NCBI GenBank assembly: GCA_033398695.1
Contig: CM065802.1
Coordinates: 78,292,096-78,356,095, forward strand
DNA from: Orobanche coerulescens
Taxonomy: Eukaryota > Streptophyta > Magnoliopsida > Lamiales > Orobanchaceae
Reading direction: 5' to 3'
Length of the DNA stretch: 64,000 nt
Below, one piece after another: positions 2,150 through 52,306 of the stretch. A program made the position numbers and the translations under genes. Position 1 is the first letter of the stretch; every line of letters starts with the position of its first letter. The notes under the pieces are model-generated. The model was not told the DNA's origin, did no database searches, and saw nothing but the letters and a program-made list of their open reading frames with translations.

Positions 2150-3005
2150 GGATTGAGTCCGAAGACTTTCCCATGCCTATGTCGTTCCGGTTGACGAAAA
2201 ACCCTCATACTACGACAAGGCAAATCCTGAGTTGGTGTAAAAGTCTCAAAATAGATACGTGATGCAGTGTTAGTTGATGCTTGTACGATTGGTATAGACG
2301 GAGTCTCGCCCCTCAACTCATCCAGAATTATTTCGCTCATGGCCTGGTGACAAATCACATAATCCTGTTCCAGGAATCGCGTATTGGTTCTAACGATGAC
2401 CTTTTGATCTTGGGGACTATAGAACAAGCCACCCTTCGTTCCCTTAGGGTATCCTACAAACACTCGTACCTTTGTACAAGATGCCAACTTATCAGCATCC
2501 TTATTCATCAAATATGCTGGGTACCCCAAATCCGAATATGTGCTAGACTGGGCTTCTGCCCACTCCACAATTCTGTGGGTGTTTTTGAAATTGATTTCAA
2601 AGGCACCAAGTTTAGAATGTACGCCGTTGTTTCTAAGGCGTACCCCCAAAACGAAATAGGCAAAATCTAAGTAACTCATCATTGACCTAACTGTTTCTAA
2701 AAGAGTTATGTTCCTTCTCTCAGCAACACCATTTTGTTGTGAAGTTCCCGGCGTATTGAGCTGGGACGTAATCCCCTTATTTGCCAAGAAGTCCAAAAAC
2801 TCTCCACTAAGGTATTCGCCACCACGATCAGATCGTAGTAACTTGATACTCTTCCCATGACTCCTCTCCGTTTCAGCCTTGAAATCTATGAACTTGTCAA
2901 AAGCTTTAGACTTACATCGTATCAAATAGATGTATCCATATCTCGAACAATCATCTATAAACGTGATGAAGTATTCGAAACCACCCCTAGCCTGGATGTT
3001 CATTG
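2150..3005 (-). pseudogene. Copia-1 integrase core (fragment)
   Basis: The minus strand reads a copia-type integrase core without a stop to the family A LTR boundary. Visible motifs are the aspartate segment FIDDCSRYGYIYL, the second catalytic aspartate in LRSDRGGEY, and the catalytic glutamate in QQNGVAERRN. The upstream part of the same gene lies at 12657-12863, beyond gypsy element B. The five bases CATTG at 3001-3005 are the target duplication of B. The downstream end is cut at 2149 by a family A LTR, and the copia reverse transcriptase must lie beyond the window start. Integrase would insert element cDNA into the host genome; this copy is doubly interrupted. Confidence 0.85.
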
Positions 3006-3933
3006 TGTAACACCCCCGATATATTCAGGAGTATTACAGCGCCGTAAATCCTTTACATAAGGATTTACAAGGCTGAAGAATTGAACAGACATCAAAAGAT
3101 ACTAACGAATGGAAATAACGGAATTTAGATACAACAGTTCTGACCAGATACTGAAAAATACAATTGTTCAACAGCAACTTAATGATACATTACCAAAATC
3201 AAATTCAACATAAATGACTTCGTACTCGAGTACTTATTGAAATAACCAATAATCAACAGACAATTGAACCCGGCCAAAACATCACTCTGCACCCTCGTCG
3301 TCATGCAGCTCCAGTGGTTGTTTTCCCGCTCTCCTGGATCCTGAACATAAACAAAATGTTCACCCCCGAAGGGGTTAGCACAACGATGCTAGTACAAGTA
3401 CCACAACATATTACTCGTATCCCACGAAGAATAATAACGTAAACGACAAAATACCAACGAGTCTTCTCCTACGAGAAACTCATAAATGACATACACAACT
3501 GATAATCACAACATGATATCATAACATACACATGGTAATTCCGTCAATCCAGCGTTCACTGCCTAGAACCCACGATGATCCCGTCAGACCAACCCGTGGT
3601 GGAAAAACCCATCCGATGATCCAGCGCACGCTAGCATAGATCCCCCGATGATCCCGTCGGACCAACAAGAGGTGGACATACAATAACGACATACATGCAC
3701 GACAATATGTATAACAACAATACATAAAACAATTAAGGTACTTGCCTCGATTTGAAGACAATAACAACACTTCCACGAAAATGAACACTCGAAGGTCGTC
3801 CTCCTCAACCAATCACGTAACGAGACCAAACCTTAACAAAAGAAATGATATAGGATTTATCTCGCATCGTACGAATGTTTAACAATTCGATTTACGGTCA
3901 AAAGTTCATAAAACGCAATCTGTCTGAACTGCT

Positions 3934-4149
3934 TAGCGCACGCTAAGTACTCTGTGTAGCGTGCGTTAAGTCTGCTCGATAGCGCACGCAAACAACAAAG
4001 CCTAGCGCACGCTAACTATGTGTGGTCAGTACTTCACTGATCAGTCGACTGACTTGTCTGTTGGCCTAGCGTACGTTACGTACCAAATGTAGCGTACGCT
4101 AACTCGTGCTCGATAGCGCACGTTAATAATCAAAGCATAGCGTGCGCTA
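3934..4149. repeat. Palindrome array 2 of family B (3' LTR copy)
   Basis: Eight copies of a 12-bp palindrome close to TAGCGCACGCTA start at 3934, 3957, 3980, 4003 and at 4067, 4090, 4114, 4138. They form two groups of four with 23-24 bp steps and a 133-bp period between groups. The spacer between groups contains CAGT/ACTG words. In element orientation this array lies well downstream of the TATA box, unlike array 1. Confidence 0.9.
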
Positions 4150-5001
4150 TCTGTGCACGGCAGTTTACTGCTGAGCAGTAAACTGTTCTTGCCATGATCG
4201 AAACAATGAAATCTTCCGTGATACTTCATGTTACCTCCATGAATATCATGTATATACGATTCTGAATGATCTTACGGATAACAACAACTTCGGATTCAAG
4301 GATATGCATACCATATAAACCATATTCCATTTCGACTACAATTCTTCATATGACGATTCGAAAAGCTTAACGGTTGATATCAACACCTTATATCAATCAA
4401 TATTATCATGCTGAAGTTGTTTAAACGTTCCATCTATACTAGATAAATCTTTCCATGATCAATCCTTTAGATTTATCCAACAATAATGATTGTTAAAGTC
4501 AAGTCCATGATTATTATGAAGTCATCTACTAGATTTGAATTACCAATGATAGAAGCTTCTCTTCACATATTCAGTGTAATAAGATTCGAATCATGATGAT
4601 TATAATCAAGGTATTTAAGGCTTAATCATCTCAATATTCCAAACATGATATACTTTGGATAATTCATCTATGAAAATCCATATCTTGTTAACATGATCAT
4701 CCAAATCGTTAGAATCCAACTCTAAGTCTTGAGATAGATTGAACATACCTTAATATGATGAAAATCACTTAACCGTAAGGTAGAATCCAACTCCGGTTGG
4801 TTGTATGCCACTCCAAGGTGCTATTCCTCTTCAATGATTACTCCCAAGTGATAACCAATGTATAAACACCAACAATATGTGTTCTAAGTATGTAGGAGAA
4901 TATCTCAGCTCTCTGGCCTCTCAAGTATGCAGAAGGAACGAGTAAAATGTAAGCCAAAACGAGTTGTTGTCCCATTTATAATATTCTGCATTTTAACAAG
5001 T

Positions 5002-5221
5002 TAGCGCACGCTACTAAGCATTCCTTAGCGTGCGCTAATAATGGTTGACTTCAGAATTGTCCGGGTGCGCCCGTGGGAATCTTATCCGGACCCATGTCCC
5101 GGCTGGCGCATGGCTGTCCCGCTCAATAATTGAGTCCTTAGCGCACGTTACTCCTACCTGCATAGCGTGCGCTAATAATAGCCCGATAGCGCGCGTTAAG
5201 ATACATCCTTAGCGTGCGCTA
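5002..5221. repeat. Palindrome array 1 of family B (3' LTR copy), upstream of TATA
   Basis: Palindromes start at 5002 and 5026, then at 5139, 5163, 5187 and 5210, with steps of 23-24 bp and 137 bp between groups. In element sense the array precedes the TATA-like site at about 4973-4980, so it lies in U3 where enhancers normally sit. The same array occurs in the 5' LTR at 12280-12501. Confidence 0.9.
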
Positions 5222-5376
5222 TCACGAGGTTGTTTGAGCAATTTTGCATGTTTCTATACTTATGTACAATGATATCAATGCACGAAATATCATACTCCAA
5301 TAATCAAAACCACCAATCCGAATAATACATGGTTTGAATACAGATGAAATACACCGTAATAAATCCGGATATTACA

Positions 5377-10272: not shown

Positions 10273-10290
10273 AGCTCCGATACCATATTC
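10273..10290 (-). other. Primer binding site of family B
   Basis: Directly next to the 5' LTR the minus strand reads TGGTATCGGAGC, one base from the 12-mer TGGTATCAGAGC complementary to plant initiator methionine tRNA. It fixes the element's orientation. Confidence 0.85.
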
Positions 10291-11218
10291 TGTAACACCC
10301 CCGATATATTCAGGAGTATTACAGCGCCGTAAATCCTTTACATAAGGATTTACAAGGCTGAAGAATTGAACAGACATCAAAAGATACTAACGAATGGAAA
10401 TAACGGAATTTAGATACAACAGTTCTGACCAGATACTGAAAAATACAATTGTTCAACAGCAACTTAATGATACATTACCAAAATCAAATTCAACATAAAT
10501 GACTTCGTACTCGAGTACTTATTGAAATAACCAATAATCAACAGACAATTGAACCCGGCCAAAACATCACTCTGCACCCTCGTCGTCATGCAGCTCCAGT
10601 GGTTGTTTTCCCGCTCTCCTGGATCCTGAACATAAACAAAATGTTCACCCCCGAAGGGGTTAGCACAACGATGCTAGTACAAGTACCACAACATATTACT
10701 CGTATCCCACGAAGAATAATAACGTAAACGACAAAATACCAACGAGTCTTCTCCTACGAGAAACTCATAAATGACATACACAACTGATAATCACAACATG
10801 ATATCATAACATACACATGGTAATTCCGTCGATCCAGCATTCACTGCCTAGAACCCACGATGATCCCGTCAGACCAACCCGTGGTGGAAAAACCCATCCA
10901 ATGATCTAGCGCACGCTAGCATAGATCCCCCGATGATCCCGTCGGACCAACACAAGGTGGACATACAATAACGACATACATGCACGACAATATGTATAAC
11001 AACAATACATAAAACAATTAAGGTACTTGCCTCGATTTGAAGACAATAACAACACTTCCACGAAAATGAACACTCGAAGGTCGTCCTCCTCAACCAATCA
11101 CGTAACGAGACCAAACCTTAACAAAAGAAATGATATAGGATTTATCTCACATCGTACGAATGTTTAACAATTCGATTTACGGTCAAAAGTTCATAAAACG
11201 CAATCTGCTTCGATCGCT

Positions 11219-11427
11219 TAGCGCACGCTAAGTACTCGTAGCGTCGTTAAGTCCGCTCGATAGCGCACGCAAACAACAAAGCCTAGCGACGCTAACTATG
11301 TGTGGTCGATTTCACCGATCGCCGATCGACTTGTTCATTGGCCTAGCGTGCGTTACGTACCAAATGTAGCGTCACGCTAACTCGTGCTCGATAGCGCACG
11401 TTAATAATCAAAGCATAGCGTGCGCTA
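11219..11427. repeat. Palindrome array 2 of family B (5' LTR copy), altered
   Basis: It corresponds to the array at 3934-4149 and keeps the spacing roughly, but several palindromes are one base short (for example TAGCGACGCTA). Many spacer CTG or CAG words are replaced by CG-containing ones. The altered stretch extends to about 11460. Confidence 0.85.
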
Positions 11428-12279
11428 TTCTGTACGGCAGCATCGCCGAGCAAGAATCGTTCTTGCCATGATCGAAACAATGAAATCTTCCGTGATACTT
11501 CATGTTACCTCCATGAATATCATGTATATACGATTCTGAATGATCTTACGGATAACAACAACTTCGGATTCAAGGATATGCATACCATATAAACCATATT
11601 CCATTTCGACTACAATTCTTCATATGACGATTCGAAAAGCTTAACGGTTGATATCAACACCTTATATCAATCAATATTATCATGCTGAAGTTGTTTAAAC
11701 GTTCCATCTATACTAGATAAATCTTTCCATGATCAATCCTTTAGATTTATCCAACAATAATGATTGTTAAAGTCAAGTCCATGATTATTATGAAGTCATC
11801 TACTAGATTCGAATTACCAATGATAGAAGCTTCTCTTCACATATTCAGTGTAATAAGATTCGAATCATGATGATTATAATCAAGGTATTTAAGGCTTAAT
11901 CATCTCAATATTCCAAACATGATATACTTTGGATAATTCATCTATGAAAATCCATATCTTGTTAACATGATCATCCAAATCGTTAGAATCCAACTCTAAG
12001 TCTTGAGATAGATTGAACATACCTTAATATGATGAAAATCACTTAACCGTAAGGTAGAATCCAACTCCGGTTGGTTGTATGCCACTCCAAGGTGCTATTC
12101 CTCTTCAATGATTACTCCCAAGTGATAACCAATGTATAAACACCAACAATATGTGTTCTAAGTATGTAGGAGAATATCTCAGCTCTCTGGCCTCTCAAGT
12201 ATGCAGAAGGGAACGAGTAAAATGTAAGCCAAAACGAGTTGTTGTCCCATTTATAATATTCTGCATTTTAACAAGTTAG

Positions 12280-12501
12280 CGCACGCTACTAAGCATTCCT
12301 TAGCGTGCGCTAATAATGGTTGACTTCAAAATTGTCCGGGTGCGCCCGTGGGAATCTTATCCGGACCCATGTCCCGGCTGGCGCATGTGCTAGCTGTCCC
12401 GCTCAATAATTGAGTCCTTAGCGCACGTTACTCCTACCTACATAGCGTGGGCTAATAATAGCCCGATAGCGCGCGTTAAGATACATCCTTAGCGTGCGCT
12501 A
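12280..12501. repeat. Palindrome array 1 of family B (5' LTR copy)
   Basis: Copies of TAGCGCACGCTA or its complement begin at 12280 and end at 12501, in the same arrangement as 5002-5221. The array lies upstream of the TATA-like site at 12253-12260 in element sense, so it would act on the promoter that makes the genomic RNA. Confidence 0.9.
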
Positions 12502-12656
12502 TCACGAGGTTGTTTGAGCAATTTTGCATGTTTCTATACTTATGTACAATGATATCAATGCACGAAATATCATACTCCAATAATCAAAACCACCAATCCG
12601 AATAATACATGGTTTGAATACAGATGAAATACACCGTAATAAATCTGGATATTACA

Positions 12657-15532: not shown

Positions 15533-16077
15533 TGTTGGAAATAAAACGCAGCGGAAGTGAAGTTTGGAAAAATTTTAATAAGGCGTTTTACGCATCCACG
15601 AACACAAGACCTATTTAGGCATGCTAATTAACTACTAAGATTAATAAGCAATTTAAATATTATTTATTATTTATTAAATAATATTATTGGTAAATTTAAT
15701 ATCCTAGTCAAGATCAAAGATCATATGATATTTATCTTTTGAAGCAAGTGGTTGCTACTTTTGACCTCTTCCCCAAAACCTTGTAGAGTATGATCCTGCC
15801 TTAATCCGGACGTTGTGTGGGCAATGAGCTATCGAATCTTGCTTGGACTTGTAATACCCGGTTGTAATTCAGTCATTATCATTCAGTAATTATCGTTCAG
15901 TAATTGTCACTCAGTAATTTTCACTCATTAATGATCATTTGTCACTCATATTCAATCATTATTCACCGTTCAGAGTAATTGTATCGTGTATCAATCGTCA
16001 TTCATCATCAATATAGTTGGAGAATCGTGTCGTGTTTATCATCATTGTCATCTTCATAGTGGGCTTTGTGTGAGGAG

Positions 16078-16622
16078 TAGCGCAAGCTACGTACTCTCTT
16101 TAGCGCGCGCTAATTGAGTTCGGGTAGCGCACGCTACCTCTCAACATTAGCGCACGCTAATGTAGTTCAAGCAGGCAGTCCATAAGGCACTGGACTGCAG
16201 TTGGGTTGTAAGTAGCGCACGCTACGAATGGTAAGTAGCGCACGCTAGTAGGTCGGAGTAGCGCACGCTATGCAGTCGGTGTAGCGCGCGCTAAGGTCGG
16301 ATCAGGCAGAGTCCAGTGGCTACTGGACTGAATTGGAATAATTCCTAGCGCACGCTACGAGTAGATATTAGCGTACGCTAATCGGTGTCAGTAGCGCACG
16401 CTGAATTTTGTGTGTAGCGCGTGCTACCACGATCAGATCAGAGAACATGAGGTTCTGGACTTTAGTACTGGGCAACAGCTAATTTGTTAGCGCACGCTAA
16501 CATTTTGAGTTAACTCACGCTAAGTATATGGTTGTAGCGCACGCTACCATTGCGAACAGAGGGTACTGGACTGCCCAGTACACCCGTTAGCGCACGCTAC
16601 GCACAGGAGCTAGCGCACGCCA
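16078..16622. repeat. Higher-order palindrome array in LTR family A (17 copies)
   Basis: Seventeen copies of a 12-bp near-palindrome (TAGCGCACGCTA) start at 16078, 16101, 16125, 16148; 16213, 16236, 16259, 16282; 16346, 16369, 16392, 16415; 16488, 16511, 16535; 16588, 16611. Within groups the step is 23 bp (twice 24); groups repeat every 133-142 bp. The blocks between groups carry a second conserved element with GGACTG/CAGTCC words, such as CTACTGGACTGAA at 16320-16332. The array ends 13 bp before the TATA box, so it occupies the U3 enhancer position. Confidence 0.95.
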
Positions 16623-16634
16623 AACGGGGGTTGC

Positions 16635-16642
16635 TATAAATA
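16635..16642 (+). promoter_or_regulatory. TATA box of LTR family A
   Basis: TATAAATA in the context GCTATAAATAGGA follows the palindrome array directly. It is the only strong TATA consensus in this part of the LTR and fits the U3 core promoter position. Confidence 0.8.
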
Positions 16643-17989
16643 GGACAGTTTAGTCTTTTCTTCATCATTCTTCATTTCTTTTCATTCCTTCGTCGGTTCC
16701 GAGCGATTTGGAGCCTCTCGAGAAGTGTTCTTCGAGGCGCAATCATCTATCAACATCTCCAATCTTATAATTCGGATTAATCATCATTTCATCATCTCCA
16801 TCCCATCAAATCAAGGTAATAACTTCTTGGATCTAGAATTTCGGATTTTTGGGTTTTTCCTTCCGATTTCTTCGTGTAAGCCTAGATTGTTGTTGGAATA
16901 TGTTAGATATGGATTATCTACCTTGGATAAATGTATTCCTACGAATTTATTGGCATATATTTCAGATTTCATGAATATTGGGGTTAATTCAAGAACACTT
17001 TTTGGTTGACTTTGATATTTGGGGGTTTTCGATTAAATGTTGTCGTTAACTCGAATTGTAGATTTCTATTGGATTATTGATATCATTGGAGGTGTTTTGT
17101 TGGATTGAACTACTCATTTTGGAGTTGGTTTCGATATATTCGGGATTGGATATTATCAAAGGTTGTATGTTTGCTAAGTATTCGCTAGAATGCCTCAATG
17201 AGTTTGGATATTGTTGTATCGACGTTTGAGTTGGTTATGATCGTGTTTGATATATATATGGAGCATTTGTTGGTAATTATCATTCAAGGTTGTACGAGCG
17301 ACCAACATCCCTTTTAGGACATTGTTCGAGGAAGGACATTCTTCACCGGCGTTGTGTAAGTTAATTCTTACTCGGTTAAAAGGATATTCATTCCTTTCGT
17401 TGTTGTTCATTCATAATCATAAATTCATAATGTATTAACCGTATTGAGACTTGTAATTGTCAATTAATAACTTCATCACGAGGAACGATGGTTCCAATCA
17501 TTTCATTGAGCTATCATTCATTTCACTATCATTTCATCTCGGTGAGTCATTCTTGACTTTGTCGGATTGTTATTCATTATTATTATTCATGGTCATTTCT
17601 TGTCCATATGACCTTCTGGGTTCATATTGCGTGGCTGGGTGGGGATGTGTGGAATTTTTAGTCGGGCACGTGATAGTCATGTGATTGGGTTCACCGACAC
17701 ATTGGACTGTGCACACGGTAACGTACCTCCGTGAGACTAATTAGGTACAAGGGCGGGTTTGTCTGGACACTCGTCTTGTGCACTTGCACATACCATTACG
17801 GGCGTACTATGATGCCCCTCTTCAGCTTAATTTCATAGTTGAGTTATATCATGATTGTGTTTATTCAACTCTTGAGGATTGTTGTTCTGTGTAACTAACC
17901 CCGTTGGGCGATGTTATTTTCAGGTTATGGCAAGGCTAAGGCATGGGAAGAGAACGTTGACGGCGAGGAGTCCCAGTGATACTAGTAGG

Positions 17990-18653
17990 TAGGGGTGGCA
18001 TTTCGGAACCGAAAATCGAAAACCGAACCGAAAAACCCCGAAAAAAGAACCGAAAAACCGAAACCGAAGAAGACCGAACCGAAAAACAAAAAAAATAGAA
18101 CCGAACCGAACTAATTTGGTTTGGTTCTCGGTTCGGGGTCGGGCGGAACCGAACCGGACCGAAATGGACCGAAGTCAAATTTCAACATACTAAAATGACC
18201 TTGTTTTTGTGATTTTGGTGTGTTTCGAATTTTAGTACAATTTGTTTCCCTTTTGTAAGATCCTCATGGGTCCAAGAAGGACCGATAATATGCTCATGAA
18301 TTTGTGATTCAATTAATTTAGGTTGAGAGAATGAGCTACTCTGATTTACGATTGTTATATATTTTGAGATATTTGGAAATTGCTATGCAACTCTAGCTTT
18401 TATCTTGAACATATATATAACTCTTGTTGGCTTGTTGTTATATATAACTTATTCTATTGCATATAATATTTGAATTTATATTGTGAAGAACCGAAAAAAC
18501 ATCAAACCAAATCGAAACCGAACCGAATATTTATAAAACCGAACTTAACCGAACCGAACTTCAAAAAGAACCGAACAAAACCGAAACCGAATATTTGGTT
18601 CGATTCTCGTTTTCGGTCAAAAACCGAACCGAATGAAACTGAGTCCACCCCTA
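17990..18653. mobile_element. hAT-type MITE (664 bp) inside the solo LTR
   Basis: Terminal inverted repeats TAGGGGTGG and CCACCCCTA are flanked by a perfect 8-bp duplication CTAGTAGG (17982-17989 and 18654-18661). The 8-bp duplication and the TAGGGGTG end define hAT elements. Sub-terminal regions at both ends are packed with GAACCGAACC words, so the ends can pair over about 150 bp. No transposase frame is present. The sister LTR copy at 1-2149 lacks it. Confidence 0.93.
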
Positions 18654-18956
18654 CTAGTAGGGGGCCATAGTCCTTTCAGTCTTCATGTTTTCCTCATTTG
18701 TATTCCGCTGCAGACTTCCATTTAGATACTCATTTTAATTGGTGTTGTATATTTTATCTTCATATAAAATATACATGTATTCTGTTTTATCCTGGGTGTG
18801 TTGTACTTGAAACTCCTCATCGGAGTAATTAATGATATACTGTGGTTCGGTACTACAATTATATCACTTAATTCATTAATTTTCATTCGCCTAGTGGGTC
18901 CCAGTCGGGGGTCCACGACACTGTAATATTCGCCTAGTTTGGGGTGTTACAGGACT

Positions 18957-21537
18957 TTGAAGTGGATCGGCCGAACCTATATATCTCACAACTCTCAATC
19001 TTTCTTTTCCTTCAAGTAATTCTTATTGATAGCAAGAATTAAAATGTTATCTCAATTGTGTAATCAAAGACACAAGTCAAGATCCACAATCAAACACTTG
19101 GAAGAAAAAATCGAAATCCCTTATGTAAGATATGATGTAGCGGCCGAACTCCCTCCAATATATCCTATTTATAGGCTTTGGACTACTCTAGGGATCTTAA
19201 AGAGGATTAGGGTTAGAACTTTTAGTGCAACCCAACTTTCCATATTAAGTCCTTCCTATTATGGTTGAGTTCACTAATATCAATTCAAATTAATATTGCA
19301 CTTCCAACTCAAATCCCAATTTCAGAAATCGGGCTCCGTATTTAAATTTGTTATTTCCTGTGTTTAAGATATCTAATATCCATTAATTAATTTAAGCTAC
19401 TAAAAGCTTTAATTAATTAATTTCTTATCCAAGAGTAGTATCACTCGAACCTTATTATTATATCGGAATTAAATCCACCTGCAGGGTTTAATATAATAAT
19501 CATTATCAATCTCCTCAAGGGGACATCATCAACCCGCACGAGTCGGGACACGATTTTTAATTATAATATTAATTGTCATATAGATAATATTATTTTCCAA
19601 GATATGAAGCATATTGAGTCAATCACCCTGATTCTCACCCACGATAAATCAATCACAGCAATAAATATTATAAATATACAATTAAATATTATATACTTAG
19701 AATTAAGAACTGATAATTATTCGAGATTTACGTTCTTCTTACAATCAGTACAGAGACACTATCTCACTGCGATCCAGTTCAACATATGCAAATACGGTAA
19801 TGCATGCTAATAGTCAAGACCAACTAATCTCAAGCATACATTACAAGCTTTCATATAATTTGTCGAGTAGTTACATAGATTGTGAAATATTATATTATTT
19901 TATAAGGCACCGATAATATGATCTTTCTTGTGACACCAACATACTACATTATCTACAATATATGATAAATAGACAATACATTTTCATAACCATAACGTGA
20001 ATAAATATACAAAATATGTGATTAAATGTAATTAATATTCACATAGGTAGTTACAGGGAAATAAGGTAATACATGTTAGGTTGTATACTGAAAAGCATAC
20101 TTTATGCTTGTATTACCTTATTTCCATGTAACTACCTATGAGAATATTAATTACATTTAATCACATGTTTTGCATATTTATTCATGTTATGGTTATGCAA
20201 ATGAAATGTCTAATTATTTTATATTGTAGGTAATGTGGTGTGTTTGTATCACACGGAAGATCACATTATCGGTACCTTATAAAATAATAGTTCACAACCT
20301 ATATAATTATTAGACAAATTATATAAAAGATTTTAGTGTATGCTTGAGATTAGTTGGTCTTGATTATTAGCATGAATTAGCGTATTTGCATACGTTGAAC
20401 TCGATCGAAGTGAGATAATGTTTTCTGTACTGATTGTAAGAAGAACGTAAATCTTGAATAATTATTATTTCTTAATACTAAGTACATAACAAATACTTGT
20501 GTATTTATAATATTTATTGTTTTGATTTACCATGGGTGAGAGTCAAAATCATTGGCTCAATAAGCTTCATATCTTGGAAAATAATATTATTTATATAATA
20601 ATAATTATTATTACTAAAAATTGTGTCCCGACTCGTGCGGATTGATGATCTCCCCTTGAGGAGCTCCATAGTGATTATTATATTAAACCCTGCAGGTGGA
20701 TTTAATTCCAATATAATAATAAGGTTCGAGTGGTACTACTCTTGGATAAGATATTAATTAATTAAAGCTTTTAGTAGCTTAAAATTAATTAATGGGCATT
20801 CGATATCTTAAACACGGGAAATAATATATTTAAATAAGGAGCCCAATTTCATAAATTGGGATTTGGGTAGGAAGTGCAATATTAACTCTTTAGTGGACTG
20901 AGTTGATATTTAATAGACTCAACATATTTTGGAACGCCTAATATGGAAATTTGAGGTCTATTTGAAGTCTTTTCCCTAATCCTCCTTAATATCCCTAGAG
21001 TAGCCCATAACATCTATAAAAAGGACAAGGGGTTCGGCCAGATCAACAAGTAACCGTCCAAAATTTTTTGATTTTTCTGCTTTGTGTTTGATAGTGGATC
21101 TTGACTTGTGTATTCGATTCCACAGTTAGCATATTTTTCTAAAATACCAATATATTCAGGAAAAATAAAGATAAATAAGGTATTTTTGTGGAGGAGTTTG
21201 GCCAATCCACTGGTTGTTCAAGGAAGTCTGGAAGATTGTTGCCCACACGACATCCGAATATAGGCGGGATATACTCTAGAAGATCTAAATGTAAAAATAC
21301 AAGAAGATCAAGAAGAAATTCAAATACTTCGCTACAAAGGTAACGTATTCTAAGATCTTTTAGATCTAGGTAGAATACTATGAATTATCATGTTTAGACG
21401 TGTAAATATATATTGTTCTTTTAAATTGCTTATTAATCTGTATAATTAATTATTTGACGAGCCTAAATAGATCCGATTCTTGAGGGCCGACTTTAGTAAA
21501 CCAAAAGCCGCCGCTTCCGCTGCGTTTATTTCCAACA
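18957..21537. repeat. Head-to-head inverted repeat formed by two copia LTRs
   Basis: Copia-1 LTR sequence (18957-20073, reverse) meets the copia-2 5' LTR (20074-21537, forward). The two arms are diverged copies of one family: text near 20030-20068 is the reverse complement of text near 20112-20150, and the similarity continues outward for several hundred bases. A transcript through the junction could fold into a long imperfect hairpin. Confidence 0.8.
20074..21537 (+). mobile_element. 5' LTR of copia-2 (1464 bp)
   Basis: The ends TGTTAGG and CCAACA are followed directly by a primer binding site. Its last about 260 bp recur at 50284-50545. It carries none of the TAGCGCACGCTA palindromes found in the other LTR families here. 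Confidence 0.88.
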
Positions 21538-22853
21538 ATTGGTATCGGAGACGGTCTTTAGGTTCCGTTCAATTTAATTAATTTTGTGATTAATTGCTAC
21601 CAATTTAAAAATATTCATATATTATGATCTTTGAAATATTTTTGCCAGAAATGATCTTAGAGGTGAATATGGTCCAATTATCATGGCTATATGATTTTTT
21701 TTATTAATTTTACGCATTTTGGTAATTTGGCCCGTTTTGAGACATGTATAAGTTTTCCCGTGAGAAAATCCACGGGTATAATAGGATTTTATTTTTCTTT
21801 GTAATTTTTTTGTAAATTCGAATGTATTTTATTTTGTGTAAAATTATAATCGAATTGGAGTACGCAAAACATGAAGAAAAAAAGGAGTCTCGCGCGAAAA
21901 GGAGTCCCAATCGGACGAACCGTCCGAGACCGAAAAGTTGCAGGTCAGGACCGGCCGCGGGTATGCGGTCCAGGCTGCGGATCCAGCCGCGGGTCGGGTT
22001 GGGTCAGGCAACGGACCGGGATGGTCTGGGCCGGCTCCTCCGGTGTATGGTCTTGTTCGTCTTTCCGCCGTTCGTTGTGTCCGTTGGTGCACAATATTTA
22101 AATTTAGAATTTCTTGTGCAATTAATTTTCCATGGAAAATAAAGTTTCTAAATTTGGAAATTTTGTGGGCCAACTGGGAAGATGTGATGAGATTCTTGAA
22201 GCAGTGGGAGATATCGAGCCGAAGATTTTCTCGTTATTCAAAATAAGGAATAAAAGCCATAATTGGATTTAATTATCGAATTTTTTTTATTATTGGTTTA
22301 TATTGTTTTTTATGTATGACATGTATGAATGTATGCGTGATATGTTTCTTGCATGTTAGGACAAGAAAATTAAAAACCTTAAAGCTAAAATAACTAAGTG
22401 ATTAAATTGTTTTATTTTAAAATCAAATTGGCGTCCTTAATTAATTTAAACTGTGAAGTAATTAGCATGCGCATTAACATTAGTTACTTCCTCCATATCG
22501 GATGTGCTAATTATATGTTCAGTAGTTTTAGATTTCAAATGATAACAAAAGAAAAATATTATTTTTCATGATAAGACCTCTACATCTGTAGGACTATTAT
22601 TTAAAAGATAATATTTTAAGGTTAAATTATGGTATTAATACATGGCTAAGAGGAACCAACTATTAATTTTACTTGTCATACTGTAAATTGACTAGATAGT
22701 AAAATTAAAAACGTAAAACTCTACTTGAAAAGTGTGTGTGAACATCCACACGATCGTGGCTTACATATGTGGGTTTTTCGAGGTGTTGGTTGCTAGCATA
22801 TATATTGTGTTTTTGAGATTTTTCAATATATTTTTCTATGCACTATGTGATGA
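21538..22853 (+). other. Copia-2 primer binding site and 5' leader
   Basis: ATTGGTATCGGAGAC at 21538-21552 follows the LTR and matches the initiator-tRNA-Met primer site with small changes. The leader contains a GC-rich stretch (about 21900-22070) with several overlapping open frames on both strands and no recognisable protein, then AT-rich DNA similar in reverse to 14166-15000. Confidence 0.78.
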
Positions 22854-23329: not shown

Positions 23330-23899
23330 GATTATTCAGGATATGTTACAACGTCTTGAGCCCCTCCGTGGAACCCACAAGGCTATAGATACGTAGAACC
23401 ATGAATTTCGACCGATAATGTCTAAACATAATCCAGTGGAAGACAATAAGAATAGACAACTAAGGTAATGATCAATACGATAGAATACAATACATCGGGA
23501 ATCAAGCCCAGGGCAGTTCCAGCCAAAACATCAAAAACACGTGAGACACTACTCGAGTGTTCATAACCATTCCAAGTACAACATTATTGAATGGATGAAA
23601 TACAATTACATACAGAGACAAGACACAGCATCACTCTTGCCCATCATCTTCGTGCCGACCCGGTACATGCCTATCCTCTCTCCTGGATCCTGAAATACAT
23701 GAAATGTACTTCCTCCAAAAAGGGATTAGCCATCGAATAGCTAGTACAAGTACACAAGTATGAAATACAATACTTGCACGATAAAGTAAGCATATACTCA
23801 TATCATCAATCATCGAGATATTCAATCCCATATCATTCTCATATTATCAACCTTAAGATTAGTATTCCGGAATAACTAAATCTCATACCATACCTCATG

Positions 23900-24215
23900 A
23901 TTAACCGTGGATTCGCACTATAAGCTACGATCCCTCAGAGGACTCGAATCAATCCTGGAGTGGTTAACCCAAAAATGTTCAATGGATCGCACTATACGCA
24001 ACGACCCCTCAGAGGACTCGAAGTCCCATCCCGTAGTGAACATATAATTATACTAACATGATGTTCGATGGATCGCACTAAAAGCAATAACCCCTCTGAG
24101 GACTCGAAGTCCCATCCCGGAGTGAACACGTGGTTATACACCTAAGATTGTTCAAGGGGTCGCACTATAAGCAATGACCCCTCAGAGGACTCGAAGTCCC
24201 ATCCCGGAGTGAACA
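23900..24215. repeat. About 85-bp tandem repeat in the family C 3' LTR (4 units)
   Basis: Four head-to-tail units share TCGCACTA, then ACCCCTCAGAGGACTCGAA, then CCCGGAGTGAAC. The first unit is the most diverged. The same four-unit block is in the 5' LTR at about 47340-47650. In element sense it is downstream of the TATA box, so it would be transcribed. Confidence 0.85.
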
Positions 24216-24815
24216 TCTTATCAAATACATCACAAACACTCTGCTTTCAACGTCAAGAAATACAATCATAAACATATACTTGCCTTTGAGACATAGTCGA
24301 TTCAAGGGTAGAGGTACACGAGCTTGAGTGGTCCCGAAATGCACTTCTAGTCCTAAATGATCCACAAGAATTACGATAATCAAGAATTAATGCGCAAATC
24401 ACAAGAAGGACTTCACGAAACCCCCACTAACGATTCCCCCGATTACGATATCATGAACATAGGGTTGAGGTAACACCCAACCCTCTCGATTTCGCAACGC
24501 AACCCAAAGTAGGGCATGAAATCATTGGGTTGACGTATACACAAGTGAGATTAATTACAAACTTAAGATTTCCATGGTCAAAACGAATTATACAACCAAA
24601 TTGGACAAAACCCCCCAAAATTTCCCAAGGTATCGTTTTCAAGAAGTTTACCTTGATTTGGAAGGGTGAGGAAGATCAAATGTGGTATAATCCAAACTAA
24701 TAGCTTGAAGATGATGACAAATGATGATAACTAGTCGAGATCTTCATGAATCGCCTGATATCGCCCAAAGAAGAAGATGAAGTGATAAATGATATAAAAG
24801 GGATATGCTCCATCC

Positions 24816-24823
24816 TATATATA
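24816..24823 (-). promoter_or_regulatory. TATA-like box of the family C 3' LTR
   Basis: TATATATA in the minus-strand context TATATATAGGATGG lies 12 bp beyond the last palindrome of the array at 24836-25252 in element sense. The 5' LTR has the same site at 48250-48257. Confidence 0.65.
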
Positions 24824-24835
24824 CAAAATCCTGTC

Positions 24836-25252
24836 TAGCGTGCGCTAATCATAAGGATAGCGTGCGCTAACGGGCCACCGCGTAGTCCAATAGCTTCTGA
24901 CCCGTGTCGTTAGCTTGCGCTACTGGCGATGCTAGCGCGTGCTTAATACAAATAGTGTGCGATAGCTCATCAACTAGTGTACGCTAACTGCTCGTCCAGA
25001 GAACAGAAACCAACCTACTGCCTCTGCCAAACCCGAGTAATTAGCGTATGCTACTAGCGTGCTAGCGTGCGCTACTCAACACAAATAGCATGCGTTAGCT
25101 CGTCGCTTAGCGTGCGCTAACTGCTCACCCAGAGAATAGAACCTAGTTGCTACCTCTGCCATGCTCGAATCATTAACGTGCGCTACTGGCGATGCTAGCG
25201 TATGCTACTCAACACAAATATCATGTGTTAGCTCATCACCTAGCGTACGCTA
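24836..25252. repeat. Palindrome array of the family C 3' LTR
   Basis: Copies of TAGCGTGCGCTA and decayed variants start at 24836, 24858; 24911, 24933, 24953, 24975; 25042, 25063, 25086, 25108; 25174, 25196, 25219, 25241. Steps are 20-23 bp and groups of four repeat every 131-132 bp. The spacer blocks share GTCCAGAGAA and CCTCTGCCA. The layout equals that of LTR family A. Confidence 0.93.
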
Positions 25253-25449
25253 ACTGCTCCTCTCAATAATACAACTGCGAAGTCCGATCACCACGAATAT
25301 GTTCCGAAAGATATGAAACTCTGAAATCAACAATATCTCAATAAGCGTTTACAAAGAGTGACAAAAGTGAAATAACTTCAAAGCTAAAAATTTATGAAAA
25401 GTACGGGTATTACATTCTCCCCCTCTAAAAAGAGGTTTCGTCTCGAAAC

Positions 25450-46745: not shown

Positions 46746-48830
46746 TGTAACACCCCGAAGTTATTCAGGGTATATTACAGCGCCATGAGCCCCTCCATGG
46801 GACCCACAAGGCTATAGATACGCAGAACCATGAATTTCGACTGATAAGGTCTAAACATAATCCAGTGGAAGACAATAAGAATTGGCAACCAAGGTAATAA
46901 TCAATATGATAGAATACAATAGATCGGGAATCAAACCCAAGGCAACACCGGCCAAAACATCAAAATCACGTGAGACACTACTCGATTGTTCATAACCATT
47001 CCAAGTACAACATTATTGAATAGATGACATACAAAATACAGATAGAGACAATACATATCATCACTCTTGCCCATCATCTTCGTGACGACCCGGTACATGT
47101 CTATCCGCTCTCCTGGATCCTGAAATACATGAAAGGTACTTCCTCCAAAAAGGAATTAGCCATCGAATAGCTAGTACAAGTACACAAGTATGAAATACAA
47201 TACTTCTTGCACGATAAAGTAAGCATCTACTCATATCATCAATCATCGAGATATTCAATCCCATATCATTCTCATATTACCAACCTTAATATAAGTATTC
47301 CGGAATAACTAAATCTCATACCATACCTCATGATTAACTGTGGATTCGCACTATAAGCTATGAACCCTCAGAGGACTCGAATCAATCCCGGAGTGGTTAA
47401 CCCAAAAATGTTCAATGGATCGCACTATACGCAACGACCCCTCAGAGGACTCAAAGTCCCATCCCGTAGTGAACATATAATTATACCAACACGATGTTCG
47501 ATGGATCGCACTAAAAGCAACGACCCTTCAGAGGACTCGAAGTTCCATCCCGGAGTGAACATGTGGTTATACACATAAGATTGTTCAATGGGTCGCACTA
47601 TAAGCAATGACCCCTCAGAGGACTCGAAGTCCCATCCCGGAGTGAACATCTTATCAAATACATCACAAACACTTTGCTTTCAACGTCAAGAAATACAATC
47701 ATAAACATATACTTGCCTTTGAGACACAGTCGAGTCAAGGCTAAAGGTACACGATCCTGAGTGGTCTCGAAACGCACTTCCGGTTCTAAATGATCCCCAA
47801 GAAATACGATAACCAAGAATTAATACGCAACTCACAAGAAGGAACTCACGAAACCCCCACTAATGATTCCCCCGATTACAATATCATGAACATAGGGTTG
47901 GGGTAACACCCAACCCTCTTGATTTTGCAACACAACCCAAACCAGGGCATGAAATCATAGGGTTGACATATACACAAGTGAGATTAATCATAAACTCAAA
48001 ATTTCCATGGTCAAAATGGATTATACAACCAAATCGGACAAAACCCCCCAAAATTTCCCCAAGGTAGGGTTTTCAAGAAGTTTACCTTGATTTGGAAGGG
48101 TGAGTAAGATCAAAGGTGTTATAATCTGAACTAATAGCTTGAAGATGATGATAAATGATGATATCCAGTCGGGATCTTCACGAATCGCCCGAAATCGCCC
48201 AAAGAAGAAGATGAAGTGATAAATGACGGAAATGGGATATGCTCCGTCCTATATATACAAAATCCTGTCTAGTGTGTGCTAATCATAAGGATAGTGCGCG
48301 CTAACGGGCCACCACGTAGTCCAGTAGCTTCTGACCCGCATCATTAGCGTGTGCTACTGGCGATGCTAGCACGCGCTACTTAACACAAATAGTGTGCATT
48401 AGATCATCGCCTAGCGTACGCTAACTGCTCGTCCAGAGAAGAGAAACCAACCTACTGCCTCTGCCAAACCCGAGTAATTAGCGTACGCTACTCAACATAA
48501 ATAGCATGCGTTAGCTCGCCGCCTAGCGTGCGATAACTGCTCGCCCAGAGAACAAAACCCGGTTACTTCCTCTGCCATACTCGAGTCATTAACGTGCGCT
48601 ATTGCCGCTGCTGGCGCGCGCTACTAAACACAAATAGGCTACGTTAGCTCATTGCCTAGCATGCGCTAACTGCTCCTCTCAATAATACAACTGCGAAGTC
48701 TGATCACCACAAACATGTTATGAAAGATACGAAACTCTAAAATCAACAATATCTCAATAAGCGTTTACAAAGAGTGACAAAAGTGAAAGAACTTCAAAGC
48801 CAAAAATTTATGAAAAGTACGGGTATTACA
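46746..48830 (-). mobile_element. 5' LTR of family C (2085 bp)
   Basis: It begins on the plus strand with TGTAACACCCCG, ends with GGGTATTACA at 48830, and aligns with 23332-25414. It includes the four-unit tandem repeat at about 47340-47650, a TATA-like site at 48250-48257, and a palindrome array at 48270-48668. Confidence 0.92.
48270..48668. repeat. Palindrome array of the family C 5' LTR
   Basis: It is the counterpart of 24836-25252 with the same groups and 22-bp steps, but one group is shortened near 48480. Many copies are decayed by single G-to-A or C-to-T changes (for example TAGTGTGTGCTA at 48270). The spacer text GTAGTCCAGTAGCTTCTG at 48316-48333 resembles the spacer element of families A and D. 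Confidence 0.9.
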
Positions 48831-49197: not shown

Positions 49198-50275
49198 TAT
49201 TGGAACATTTTATTCCACACATTCAATTTAGAGGTTTTGATGATAAGTTGTTGAACAAAGAAAAACAACAATGAATCAAGAAGAAGTCGAAGACTCTCGA
49301 GCTGGATAGAAAAACATTGAACTGAAGCAACATCACATATAACGTACGTAATGCAACATAGCTAAAGTACATAATAAAGACCAGCTGAAGATACAACATG
49401 GATAACGTACGTAATGAACAAAGCCCAACGTACGCAATGATCTGCGATTAACATACGTAATACAAATAGGTTAACGTATGCTATGAGAAAGTGAAGTTCG
49501 AATTCAAATAAATCAATCCATTGGATTGATTCTAGAAATTTAAAAGGCGTGCAACGGATATGTGAAGATAACGTACGCAACGTAGAGATATTAACATACA
49601 CTAAAAGGAGGATCTAACGTATGCTACGAAGATAGTTAACGTACGCTACGGGAGATACAGAAGCTACTAGACTGAAGTGAACAACATATAATGTACGCAA
49701 CATGTAAAGGTTACGTATGCTAAAGAGCATTACGTGCGCTATGCAGTAAGCTTAACGTATGCTATGAAGAGGGCATTAACCAACGACTAGTTTAGGCTTT
49801 AAAGCCTATAAATACCACTTCATATGGTATTCACAATACAACAACTTCAAGCAAAGTATTCATACATCAGATATTGTTATATTCATTATTGTTGTTGTAA
49901 TCGAGCTTAATTCATAAGAGTTCGAGTGTTTAATTCACTGAACCAAACACGAGAGAAAAGAAAGAAATATAGATTTGATACGGTGTTATTAGGATCGTAG
50001 TTCCGACATTGTTAGAATCATAATCTAAATCCAAGTGAGGTTTTTATAGTACCGATATAAAGCTAGAAAGATTGATTCCTTATCCGATAGAAAAGGAAAA
50101 CAGTTTATCTTGGACCGACGTAAAGACAAGATTGTAATGGTTTATCCTGGACAGAAGACAAGATTGTAACGGTTTACCTCGAATCAATAAAATAAAATGC
50201 AGAAAGGTTTATCTTAAGCCTATAGAAAAAGATACAAAGAGAGGACGTAGGCACATTGCCGAACCTCTATATATC
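49198..50275 (+). mobile_element. Truncated copia LTR of family D
   Basis: It begins TATTGGAACATTTTATTCCACAC, the counterpart of the TGTTGGAATATTTATTCC start of the solo LTR at 51113-52301 (reverse). Similarity to that LTR lasts to about 50275 (GCCGAACCTCTATA), where it jumps into the last part of the copia-2 LTR. A TATA box is at 49807-49814 (CCTATAAATACC). Confidence 0.85.
49340..49764. repeat. Decayed palindrome array of LTR D (TAACGTACGCTA type)
   Basis: Groups start at 49403, 49426, 49449, 49472; at 49569, 49592, 49615, 49637; and at 49689, 49711, 49730, 49753, with an extra copy at 49340. Steps are mostly 22-23 bp. Most copies read TAACGTACGCTA or TAACGTATGCTA, which are G-to-A or C-to-T versions of TAGCGTGCGCTA. 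The array ends about 40 bp before the TATA box at 49807. Confidence 0.88.
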
Positions 50276-50283
50276 AAGCTTTA

Positions 50284-50545
50284 GGTGGGATATGCTCTAG
50301 AAGATTTAAAGGCAGAAAAGGAGAAATTCAAATACTTCGCTTCAAAGGTAACATATTCTAAAATCTTTTAGATCTAGATAGAATACTATAAATTATCATG
50401 TTCACACGCGTAAATATATATTGTTCGTTTAATTGCTTATTAATCTGTGTAATTAATTATTTGACGAGCCTAAATAGATCCGATTCTTGAGGGCCAATTC
50501 TAGTAAACTAAAACCTGCCGCTTCTGCTGCGTTTTATTTCCAACA
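50284..50545 (+). mobile_element. Remnant of the copia-2 3' LTR
   Basis: It aligns with 21265-21537 of the 5' LTR, from GGGATATGCTCTAGAAG to TTATTTCCAACA, and is followed by the ATACA duplication. Its left part, and everything between the gag knuckle and here, was lost or replaced by LTR D. Confidence 0.88.
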
Positions 50546-51107: not shown

Positions 51108-51112
51108 AAGGG

Positions 51113-52301
51113 TGTTGGGTACCAAATCGAATATTTGCGCCGTTTTATGCGGAAGCGTAAATAAATTACGGAAAATAAATCACACAAAGATTTATAGAGG
51201 TTCGGCTATTAACGAAGCCTACGTCCTCTCTCGATGTATCTTTTTCTTAGGATTAAGATCAAAACCTCTACGCCTCTCTTCTATCGGTCGAGGGATTACC
51301 GTTACAAGCTCGTCTTCTATCGGTCCGAGTAAAACCGTTTTTCCTTTTCTATTGGATAAGGAATCAACCACTCTAGCTTTCTATGGGTACTAGATAAACC
51401 TCACTTAGATATCGATTGCGATTCTAACAATGCCGGATACTTGATCCTAATAACACCGAATCCAATCGTATCTTTTCTTTTACCTCTCGTGTATAATGTT
51501 GAATGTATAAACACTCAAACTAACAAAATAAGCTCAATATTACAACAACAATGTAAGTATATGATTCTCAGATGTATGACTTGTTTGCTTGAAGTTGTTG
51601 TTCTCAAACAATACCATATGGATGGTATTTATAGGCATTTCCCATAAACTAGCCGTTGCTGGCTGTTTTGACTTGCTAGCGTGCGCTAGCCTTCTTTTGT
51701 AGCGTGCGCTAGATATTTCCAGTTTCAGTCCAGTAGCTTCGTTTTTTCTTTAGCGTACGTTATGCCTCCTTCCTTACGTACGTTATTTCACTTACTTAGC
51801 GTACGTTAACCATGATTGAGTAGCGTGCGTTAACGTAATATATCCGTTGCCTTTCCTTGTCAAACTATCCGTTTGGTGCTTGACTTTGACTTGCTTTTCC
51901 CAACGTTCGGATTGACTGGATTCAAACAACTTAGCGTGCGCTAATCATACTGTGTAGCGTGCACTAATGAAGACTTCATTGCATACGTTTTGTTGTGTTT
52001 GAATTCCTTCACAACGGTAACAGGACTTCGATAGCGTGCGTTAATAATGATGTGTAGCGTGCGCTATCTCAATAGTTTACATCACTGCAGCTTACTTCGA
52101 AACTTGGCTGGAATGCAGCTTACTCCGCGTTAGCGTGCGCTAATGAATATGCCTTAGCGTGCGCTAATGCAGTCCAGATTGCAACTTTTTGCGTCTTCGT
52201 CTGCTTCGTTGTTTTGCTTCGCCTCGATGTTGTTTTGTTGTTAAGCAACTTTAATCATCAAAACATAAATTAAATAATGTGTGGAATAAATATTCCAACA
52301 A
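51113..52301 (-). mobile_element. Solo copia LTR of family D (1189 bp)
   Basis: The ends are TGTTGG and CCAACA in both directions; the flanks carry a perfect duplication AAGGG (51108-51112 and 52302-52306). It interrupts copia-3 gag-protease sequence. A TATA box lies at 51626-51633 in element sense (CCTATAAATACC). Confidence 0.93.
51677..52166. repeat. Palindrome array of the solo LTR D
   Basis: TAGCGTGCGCTA copies start at 51677, 51700; 51751, 51774, 51797, 51821; 51932, 51955; 52032, 52055; 52131, 52155, with steps of 23-24 bp inside groups. A spacer at 51724-51737 reads TTCAGTCCAGTAGC; its reverse complement GCTACTGGACTGAA is present exactly in the gypsy LTR A spacer at 16319-16332. The array lies just upstream of the TATA box. 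Confidence 0.92.
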
Positions 52302-52306
52302 AGGGT

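Follow-up and report, generated by a model that had tools for sequence, protein, structure and literature searches.

A palindrome array upstream of the TATA box in both gypsy and copia LTRs of Orobanche coerulescens

In the 64,000-nucleotide stretch of Orobanche coerulescens DNA analyzed here (the window), arrays of the 12-bp palindrome TARCGYRCGYTA lie upstream of the TATA box, in the same order and at the same spacing, in LTRs of both gypsy and copia elements. The module's carriers in this genome are several gypsy LTR families and a single copia family, here called D, which is abundant, gag-only, and of Sirevirus type. The sequence-only reading had claimed the same module for a copia LTR and for gypsy LTRs, which is confirmed within the window, and had offered movement between superfamilies or convergence as its source. 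This is the right pair of alternatives, and both of the findings named as refuting the claim fail (see below). We lean toward movement, a choice that is unproven, on the joint agreement of order, spacing, motif orientation, and a non-palindromic word.

Palindrome arrays and the LTRs that carry them

With up to one mismatch, the palindrome occurs 85 times in the window, compared with a mean of 0.98 and a maximum of 4 in 100 shuffles. Nearly all copies lie within the LTR arrays of A, B, and C and of two D copies, D+ and D-. As an outside control, a palindrome pair 9–13 bp apart was found in two prokaryotic stretches (genome_contigs) and one viral stretch (viral_contigs); the viral stretch, L001, has nothing beyond that single pair. 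The gypsy LTRs and their arrays are as follows.

15850-18951, plus strand: LTR A, a solo gypsy LTR with ends TGTAATACCC/GGGTGTTACA and target-site duplication (TSD) GGACT, lying in the 5′ LTR of copia E
16078-16622, plus strand: array A, clusters 4-4-4-3-2, final gap 53, TATA at 16635
3002-5376, minus strand: LTR B3 of gypsy element B, arrays at 5002-5221 (upstream of TATA) and 3934-4149 (downstream of TATA)
10287-12656, minus strand: LTR B5 of gypsy element B, whose differences from B3 fall mostly in the array downstream of TATA
23332-25414, minus strand: LTR C3 of gypsy element C, array 24836-25252
46761-48830, minus strand: LTR C5 of gypsy element C, array 48270-48668, word at 48315-48331

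By domain content and similarity, A, B, and C are assigned to Ty3/gypsy. Element B encodes RVT_1 (E 2.7e-36) and Integrase_H2C2 (5.7e-14) domains, element C has a gypsy-type SH3_Tf2-1 match (5e-26) plus similarity to B, and L020, one of 20 genome samples, contains an A-family LTR pair around an internal region 72–76% like B. Among the 120 best of 7989 RT hits, identity reaches at most 76%, and the hits that bear a name come from plants apart from two labeled as bacterial. The LTRs of all three begin TGTAATAyCC, and we take them to be of the Tekay/Del chromovirus lineage; the Chromo match in C scores 20.2 bits, below the curated cut-off of 25.1. Two further genome samples, L025 and L031, contain relatives of B (74–84% identity in matched LTR pieces) with layout 4-4-2 or 4-4-4, so the B of the window seems to have lost a cluster.

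The copia side comprises the following features.

51113-52300, minus strand: LTR D-, a solo LTR of a gag-only Sirevirus-type copia family, identified by its borders, TSD, and full-length and gag-selected relatives
51108-51112 and 52301-52305: TSD AAGGG of LTR D-
51677-52166, minus strand: palindrome array of D-, 12 palindromes with up to one mismatch
51724-51740, minus strand: word GAAGCTACTGGACTGAA in the final gap of D-, its GGACT ending 15 bp before the closing doublet
51626-51633, minus strand: TATA box TATAAATA of D-, 43 bp after the last palindrome
49198-50275, plus strand: LTR D+, an AT-type relative of D-
49340-49764, plus strand: palindrome array of D+, with the word variant GAAGCTACTAGACTGAA at 49660-49676 and TATA at 49807-49814
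50276-50545, plus strand: F-like LTR end joined to D+, 86% to copia F 21261-21539

The sequence-only reading described D- as a solo LTR with ends TGTTGG/CCAACA and an AAGGG duplication, carrying the palindrome at 23–24 bp steps. This description stands: AAGGG flanks both ends, and 7 of the 11 steps are 23–24 bp. With relaxed matching, the D- array reads in sense order as clusters 2-2-3-4-2 followed by a final gap of 51 bp. LTR ends were a thin basis for calling D copia, an assignment with which the primer-binding site (PBS), gag, and Sirevirus signatures of its relatives agree. That D might instead belong to a gypsy element, one of the two refuting findings, is contradicted by the copia PBS, PF14223 gag, and Sirevirus polypurine tract (PPT) of these relatives.

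A search of the 3.65-Gb assembly with the D- array gave 40 scored matches of 3643 first-look candidates, at 96–100% identity. The full-length D relatives (L012-L017) have LTRs of ∼1185 bp and, in four of five elements (L016 could not be resolved), an internal region of ∼2.0 kb; in elements with this region pol is absent, and there is no RT. Family D is non-autonomous and gag-only. Two elements, L012 and L015, keep a long open gag ORF (479 and 501 aa, respectively), and that of L013 and L017 is interrupted; the two open ORFs, the ones scanned, match PF14223 Retrotran_gag_2, a copia-type gag (E 6.3e-31 and 2e-32, respectively). The sequence TGGTATC(A/G)GAGC, which we take to be a PBS of initiator tRNA-Met (iMet) type, follows ...CCAACA in four of five D elements (again with L016 the exception) and is present in the gag-selected copies L043 and L044, with TGGTATCGGAGA in L045. 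A terminal PPT, AGGGGGAG, lies 10 bp before the 3′ LTR in all six loci, with an AT/TG junction at the 3′ LTR in the five loci read. The linker holds three to five PPT copies per element in five of the six loci and one in L017. An inverted repeat, TAATCATCAAAA, borders the PPT with a 12/12 match and a right arm 37 bp inside the 3′ LTR (6/6 loci). D thereby resembles Sireviruses as described in the consulted parts of Bousios et al. (2010, PMC2829016), which have multiple AGGGGGAG PPTs, the AT/TG junction, and a PPT-bordering inverted repeat; the published repeat averages 28 bp in length, lies 28 bp inside the LTR, and also occurs in almost half of classic copia elements.

So that copies could be chosen independently of the array, the genome was also searched with gag, giving 86 scored matches of 74,976 candidates. 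These are 96–100% identical to D gag, most with a 521-aa frame and several with internal stops. Family D is recent and abundant. Three gag-selected copies (L043-L045) were taken from outside the 40-row list of the array search, and in all three the array lies between the LTR start and the PBS, hence within a copia LTR itself; this counts for the exchange reading set out below. The final gap of L044, only 28 bp, counts against it. No autonomous partner of D was found among the genome matches examined. One D locus (L014, G000:C7:133306000-133315900) has three tandem D LTRs with a period of ∼3.2 kb, as unequal recombination leaves.

D+ is provisionally copia through its likeness to D- only (68% identity over 748 columns). 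We dropped an assignment of the whole of 49198-50545 as a copia LTR via its last 280 bp, which are 86% to copia F. Matches of D+ to other genome copies are confined to query positions 1-1079 of the LTR, and of 45 listed rows only one, the window's own copy, passes position 1079, so a heritable recombinant LTR was rejected. Since among these 45 rows the window copy alone crosses the joint with F-type sequence, at 50275-50282, the joint looks local to this site, and for the same reason we withdrew as evidence the argument that F shares an LTR end with D+ yet has no array. Elsewhere in the window, a 2.1-kb inverted repeat (19054-21127) apparently represents the U3 halves of head-to-head copia LTRs E (minus) and F (plus), which are 81% alike. 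Neither E nor F has a palindrome array, with two scattered matches (up to two mismatches) per stretch scanned.

A common layout upstream of the TATA box

The comparison took in 13 array rows extending as far as a TATA box, all oriented with transcription; because LTR pairs and close relatives are included, the rows are not independent, and the counts that follow are to be read in this light. The common order is palindrome clusters, a final gap, a closing doublet, and the TATA box. The final gap is 50–55 bp in 11 of the 13 rows, the exceptions being B3 (113) and B5 (118); that of the genome sample L032 is 51 or 55 bp, depending on how overlapping matches are resolved. The closing cluster is a doublet in 11 rows and has four palindromes in D+ and L031. 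The distance from the last palindrome to the TATA box is 12–13 bp in A, C, and the B relatives, 11 bp in L032, 21 bp in B, and 42–43 bp in D.

The final gap also holds a non-palindromic word. In eight of the 13 rows, from A, C, and D, TAYTRGACT ends 14–15 bp before the closing cluster, and in C and D the word is longer than in A (GAAGCTAYTRGACT); in this comparison the final gap lacks such a word in B, the B relatives, and L032. A has one copy in an inner gap (16316-16332) and TACTGGACT in its final gap. Allowing up to three mismatches, the window contains the 17-mer GAAGCTACTGGACTGAA four times, in the arrays of A, C, D+, and D- (once per array), compared with a shuffle mean of 0.12 and a maximum of 2. 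The 14-mer GCTACTGGACTGAA is common to LTR A (16319-16332) and, as its reverse complement, D- (51724-51737), just as the sequence-only reading had it; in family C, where it saw a similar word, the match in C5 is at 48315-48331. The word it placed in D+ at 49673-49686 is present but lies 13 bp away, at 49660-49676.

Agreement of the gap, the doublet, and the word slot across superfamilies counts for exchange, as does the orientation of the motif, whose center is CA and never TG in A (13:0), C3 (8:0), C5 (7:0), and D- (9:0); in B and L032 the orientation is mixed. The differing TATA distances (42–43 bp in D versus 11–21 bp elsewhere) count against it.

Spacers were compared with the palindromes masked, using 15 shuffles per pair. 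Among A, C5, D+, and D-, the word is common to all six pairs, each scoring above its own 15 shuffles. For A versus C5 the two orientations score alike (22 for sense and for antisense) because A also carries inverted copies of part of the word, a tie that counts against exchange. Compared with these four, the spacers of the B arrays never scored higher than the best of their 15 shuffles. Between copia and gypsy arrays no alignable sequence is common beyond the sites, which also counts against exchange. Even D+ and D- spacers have nothing above shuffles aside from the word, leaving too little alignable sequence for a module tree.

The arrays extend well beyond the window. In 20 evenly spaced 10-kb stretches (200 kb of the 3.65-Gb assembly), 97 palindromes were found with up to one mismatch, compared with 2–7 for each of six symmetric control motifs. 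Six samples contain arrays (L018, L020, L025, L030, L031, and L032, with only three palindromes in L030), and three others have 1–3 scattered matches each. The other refuting finding, a module scattered at random across the genome, fails as well: in the stretches examined the palindromes form dense ordered arrays. L018 is a 5.2-kb tandem unit whose copies are 98.9% identical and carry TTACGTACGTAA-type palindromes, with no assignable LTR position. The palindromes of L030 (7744-7801) apparently lie downstream of a PBS, in an internal region, again with no assignable LTR position. With this apparently internal set and the B array downstream of TATA (3934-4149), the module is not confined to U3. 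No superfamily could be assigned to L032 from the sampled stretch.

Conservation and turnover of the arrays

Conservation in D- was measured over 19 LTRs, with L004, L005, and L008 excluded as repeats of the window copy and L012. At non-CpG positions, 7 of 1862 palindrome cells differ, compared with 82 of 5814 spacer cells; as most of these LTRs were recruited by array likeness and have shared ancestry, this is an indication and not a test. The lower rate counts for the exchange reading, in which the sites are selected. At CpG positions, palindromes vary as much as spacers (0.016 per cell each), which counts against it. Within D-, the word is no better kept than its surroundings (7 of 323 cells differ); of the three gag-selected D copies, one has the core unchanged, and of three further A copies, one has the word unchanged in its final gap. 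This variability of the word, and its absence from the final gap of B, the B relatives, and L032, count against exchange. No arm-to-arm covariation of the palindromes was detected within families (173 copies, 4.647 symmetric pairs versus 4.674 shuffled).

Differences between the two LTRs of one element are concentrated in the arrays, the pattern expected of conversion or fast turnover: B3 and B5 differ at 49 of 518 array columns, compared with 11 of 1864 outside, and C3 and C5 at 75 of 421, compared with 125 of 1670 outside. This bias fits DNA-level exchange. In B, however, the excess comes from the second array, past the TATA box (41 of 292 columns), with no significant excess in the upstream array alone (8 of 226), and 29 of 31 array substitutions are transitions, which is odd for conversion from a divergent copy; both features count against exchange. 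In the Tnt1 copia superfamily, U3 regulatory blocks reportedly vary faster than the rest of the element, a variation said to lie inside that one superfamily and not to run from copia to gypsy.

From 3934-4149 (B3) to 11219-11427 (B5), CAG/CTG falls from 16 to 3, CG rises from 23 to 34, and CGAT/ATCG rises from 2 to 11; CAGT words repeatedly become CGAT in LTRs that are otherwise nearly identical. The change may be real, a loss of CHG methylation sites, or may be systematic sequencing error.

Palindromes are TAGCGCACGCTA-like in A, C, and D-, TAACGTACGTTA-like in L025, L031, and D+, and TTACGTACGTAA-like in L018; the GC type predominates in the first group and the AT type in the second. Because the type differs family by family, arrays seem to switch type as blocks.

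Exchange, convergence, and known systems

The explanation we prefer, though we give it slightly less than an even chance, is exchange between the superfamilies of a promoter-upstream enhancer array that is kept by selection on its sites. The module would be an upstream enhancer of the LTR promoter, bound at numerous sites by a protein that is probably dimeric; its site grammar is one of clusters ∼23 bp apart closed by a 50–55 bp gap, a doublet, and the TATA box. We infer the protein and its enhancer action from the place upstream of TATA, the near-symmetry and regular spacing of the sites, and their conservation over spacers. Transfer, and its direction, are likewise conditional: DNA-level recombination, acting on nested or neighboring LTRs, would have placed a gypsy-type U3 array in front of a copia core promoter, where it would have been retained since it responds to the same nuclear factor. 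Turnover as a block within each family would then leave only sites and spacing. Opportunity for such an exchange exists in the window, where gypsy LTR A is nested inside copia LTR E, and a common layout with features that one factor need not impose fits it. Against it, no copia/gypsy breakpoint or donor-recipient intermediate was found among the arrays compared.

Convergence is possible but, in our judgment, a weaker candidate. Here one abundant host factor would prefer a certain spacing, and arrays would have arisen separately in copia and gypsy elements through tandem duplication and selection. In other plants, Sirevirus LTRs have palindromic repeats of their own upstream of TATA (Bousios et al., 2010), so copia elements can build arrays unaided. 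Convergence is also favored by the restriction of copia-gypsy likeness to the sites and not their flanks, by the differing TATA distances, and by the B relatives and L032, which show the layout without the word. However, the non-palindromic word, placed and oriented alike in A, C, and D, would have to converge too, as would the common motif orientation.

That comparison also delimits what is new. In the consulted text, Sirevirus repeated motifs (RM) are palindromic, number at least eight per RM-bearing element, cluster in the upstream half of the LTR shortly upstream of the TATA box, and are termed Sirevirus-specific relative to the classic copia elements compared (Bousios et al., 2010). D is alike in its palindromic motif, clustering, and place upstream of TATA. 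The published RM cores are CGG-CCG (except in Tnd-1), whereas the D motif is TARCGYRCGYTA and lacks this core; the D array therefore has RM-like placement and none of the RM sequences published there. Unlike the published RM, the present motif and layout also occur in gypsy LTRs. Palindromic Sirevirus LTR arrays are thus already published, and sharing with gypsy is the new part. On the gypsy side, 5′ CpG islands of Del LTRs are likewise CpG-rich, variable, and located in the upstream part of the LTR (Cruz et al., 2014, PMC4029996); in the main text of that paper “palindrom” occurs 0 times, no sharing with copia is reported, and no such island is reported for eudicot Del. Across titles and abstract openings, our literature search found no module common to copia and gypsy, and a search by motif letters gave no plant-transposon paper by title among the matches listed.

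An unlikely third account, drawn by analogy, is that the array would be the target of a sequence-specific anti-silencing protein of the VANC kind and not an ordinary enhancer, so that unrelated elements would profit from one protein. As far as the consulted text of Hosaka et al. (2017, PMC5735166) goes, VANC targets are tandem arrays of short motifs whose evolution tracks that of the protein, and an unrelated element, AT9TSD1, also contains VANC6 motifs. The likeness to our arrays lies in noncoding tandem motif arrays within transposons, array turnover, and one unrelated sharer, and variation of palindrome type by family (GC in A, C, and D-; AT in L025, L031, and D+) would suit such a system. 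VANDALs differ in being DNA transposons with their own VANC gene and no reported TATA-anchored layout, and within families our arrays keep a fixed TATA distance, like enhancers.

The two remaining explanations are both highly improbable. Common descent from an ancestral LTR that predates the copia/gypsy split draws on the sharing itself and nothing further; copia E and F lack the array, and survival over such time is implausible when spacers are unalignable even within D. Assembly artefact, or gypsy LTR fragments inserted in D, could draw on the systematic look of some array differences (CAG/CTG versus CGAT/ATCG), but the array lies upstream of TATA, between the LTR start and a copia PBS, at many genome sites, the D- copy of the window has intact TSDs, and the gag-selected copies already contradict it.

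An exchanged array would mean that pieces of LTR promoters pass between copia and gypsy in the course of evolution, and that a single factor, encoded by the host or by a transposon, may govern many elements of this 3.65-Gb genome together. A broader proposition, possible but doubtful at present, is that a regulatory cassette with a fixed grammar circulates among LTR retrotransposon superfamilies, much as promoter cassettes do among plasmids, with copia and gypsy elements co-activated by one trans-acting factor. With thousands of first-look candidates in the genome, exchange versus convergence is decidable by computation, and the factor behind the arrays can be sought by DNA-affinity methods.
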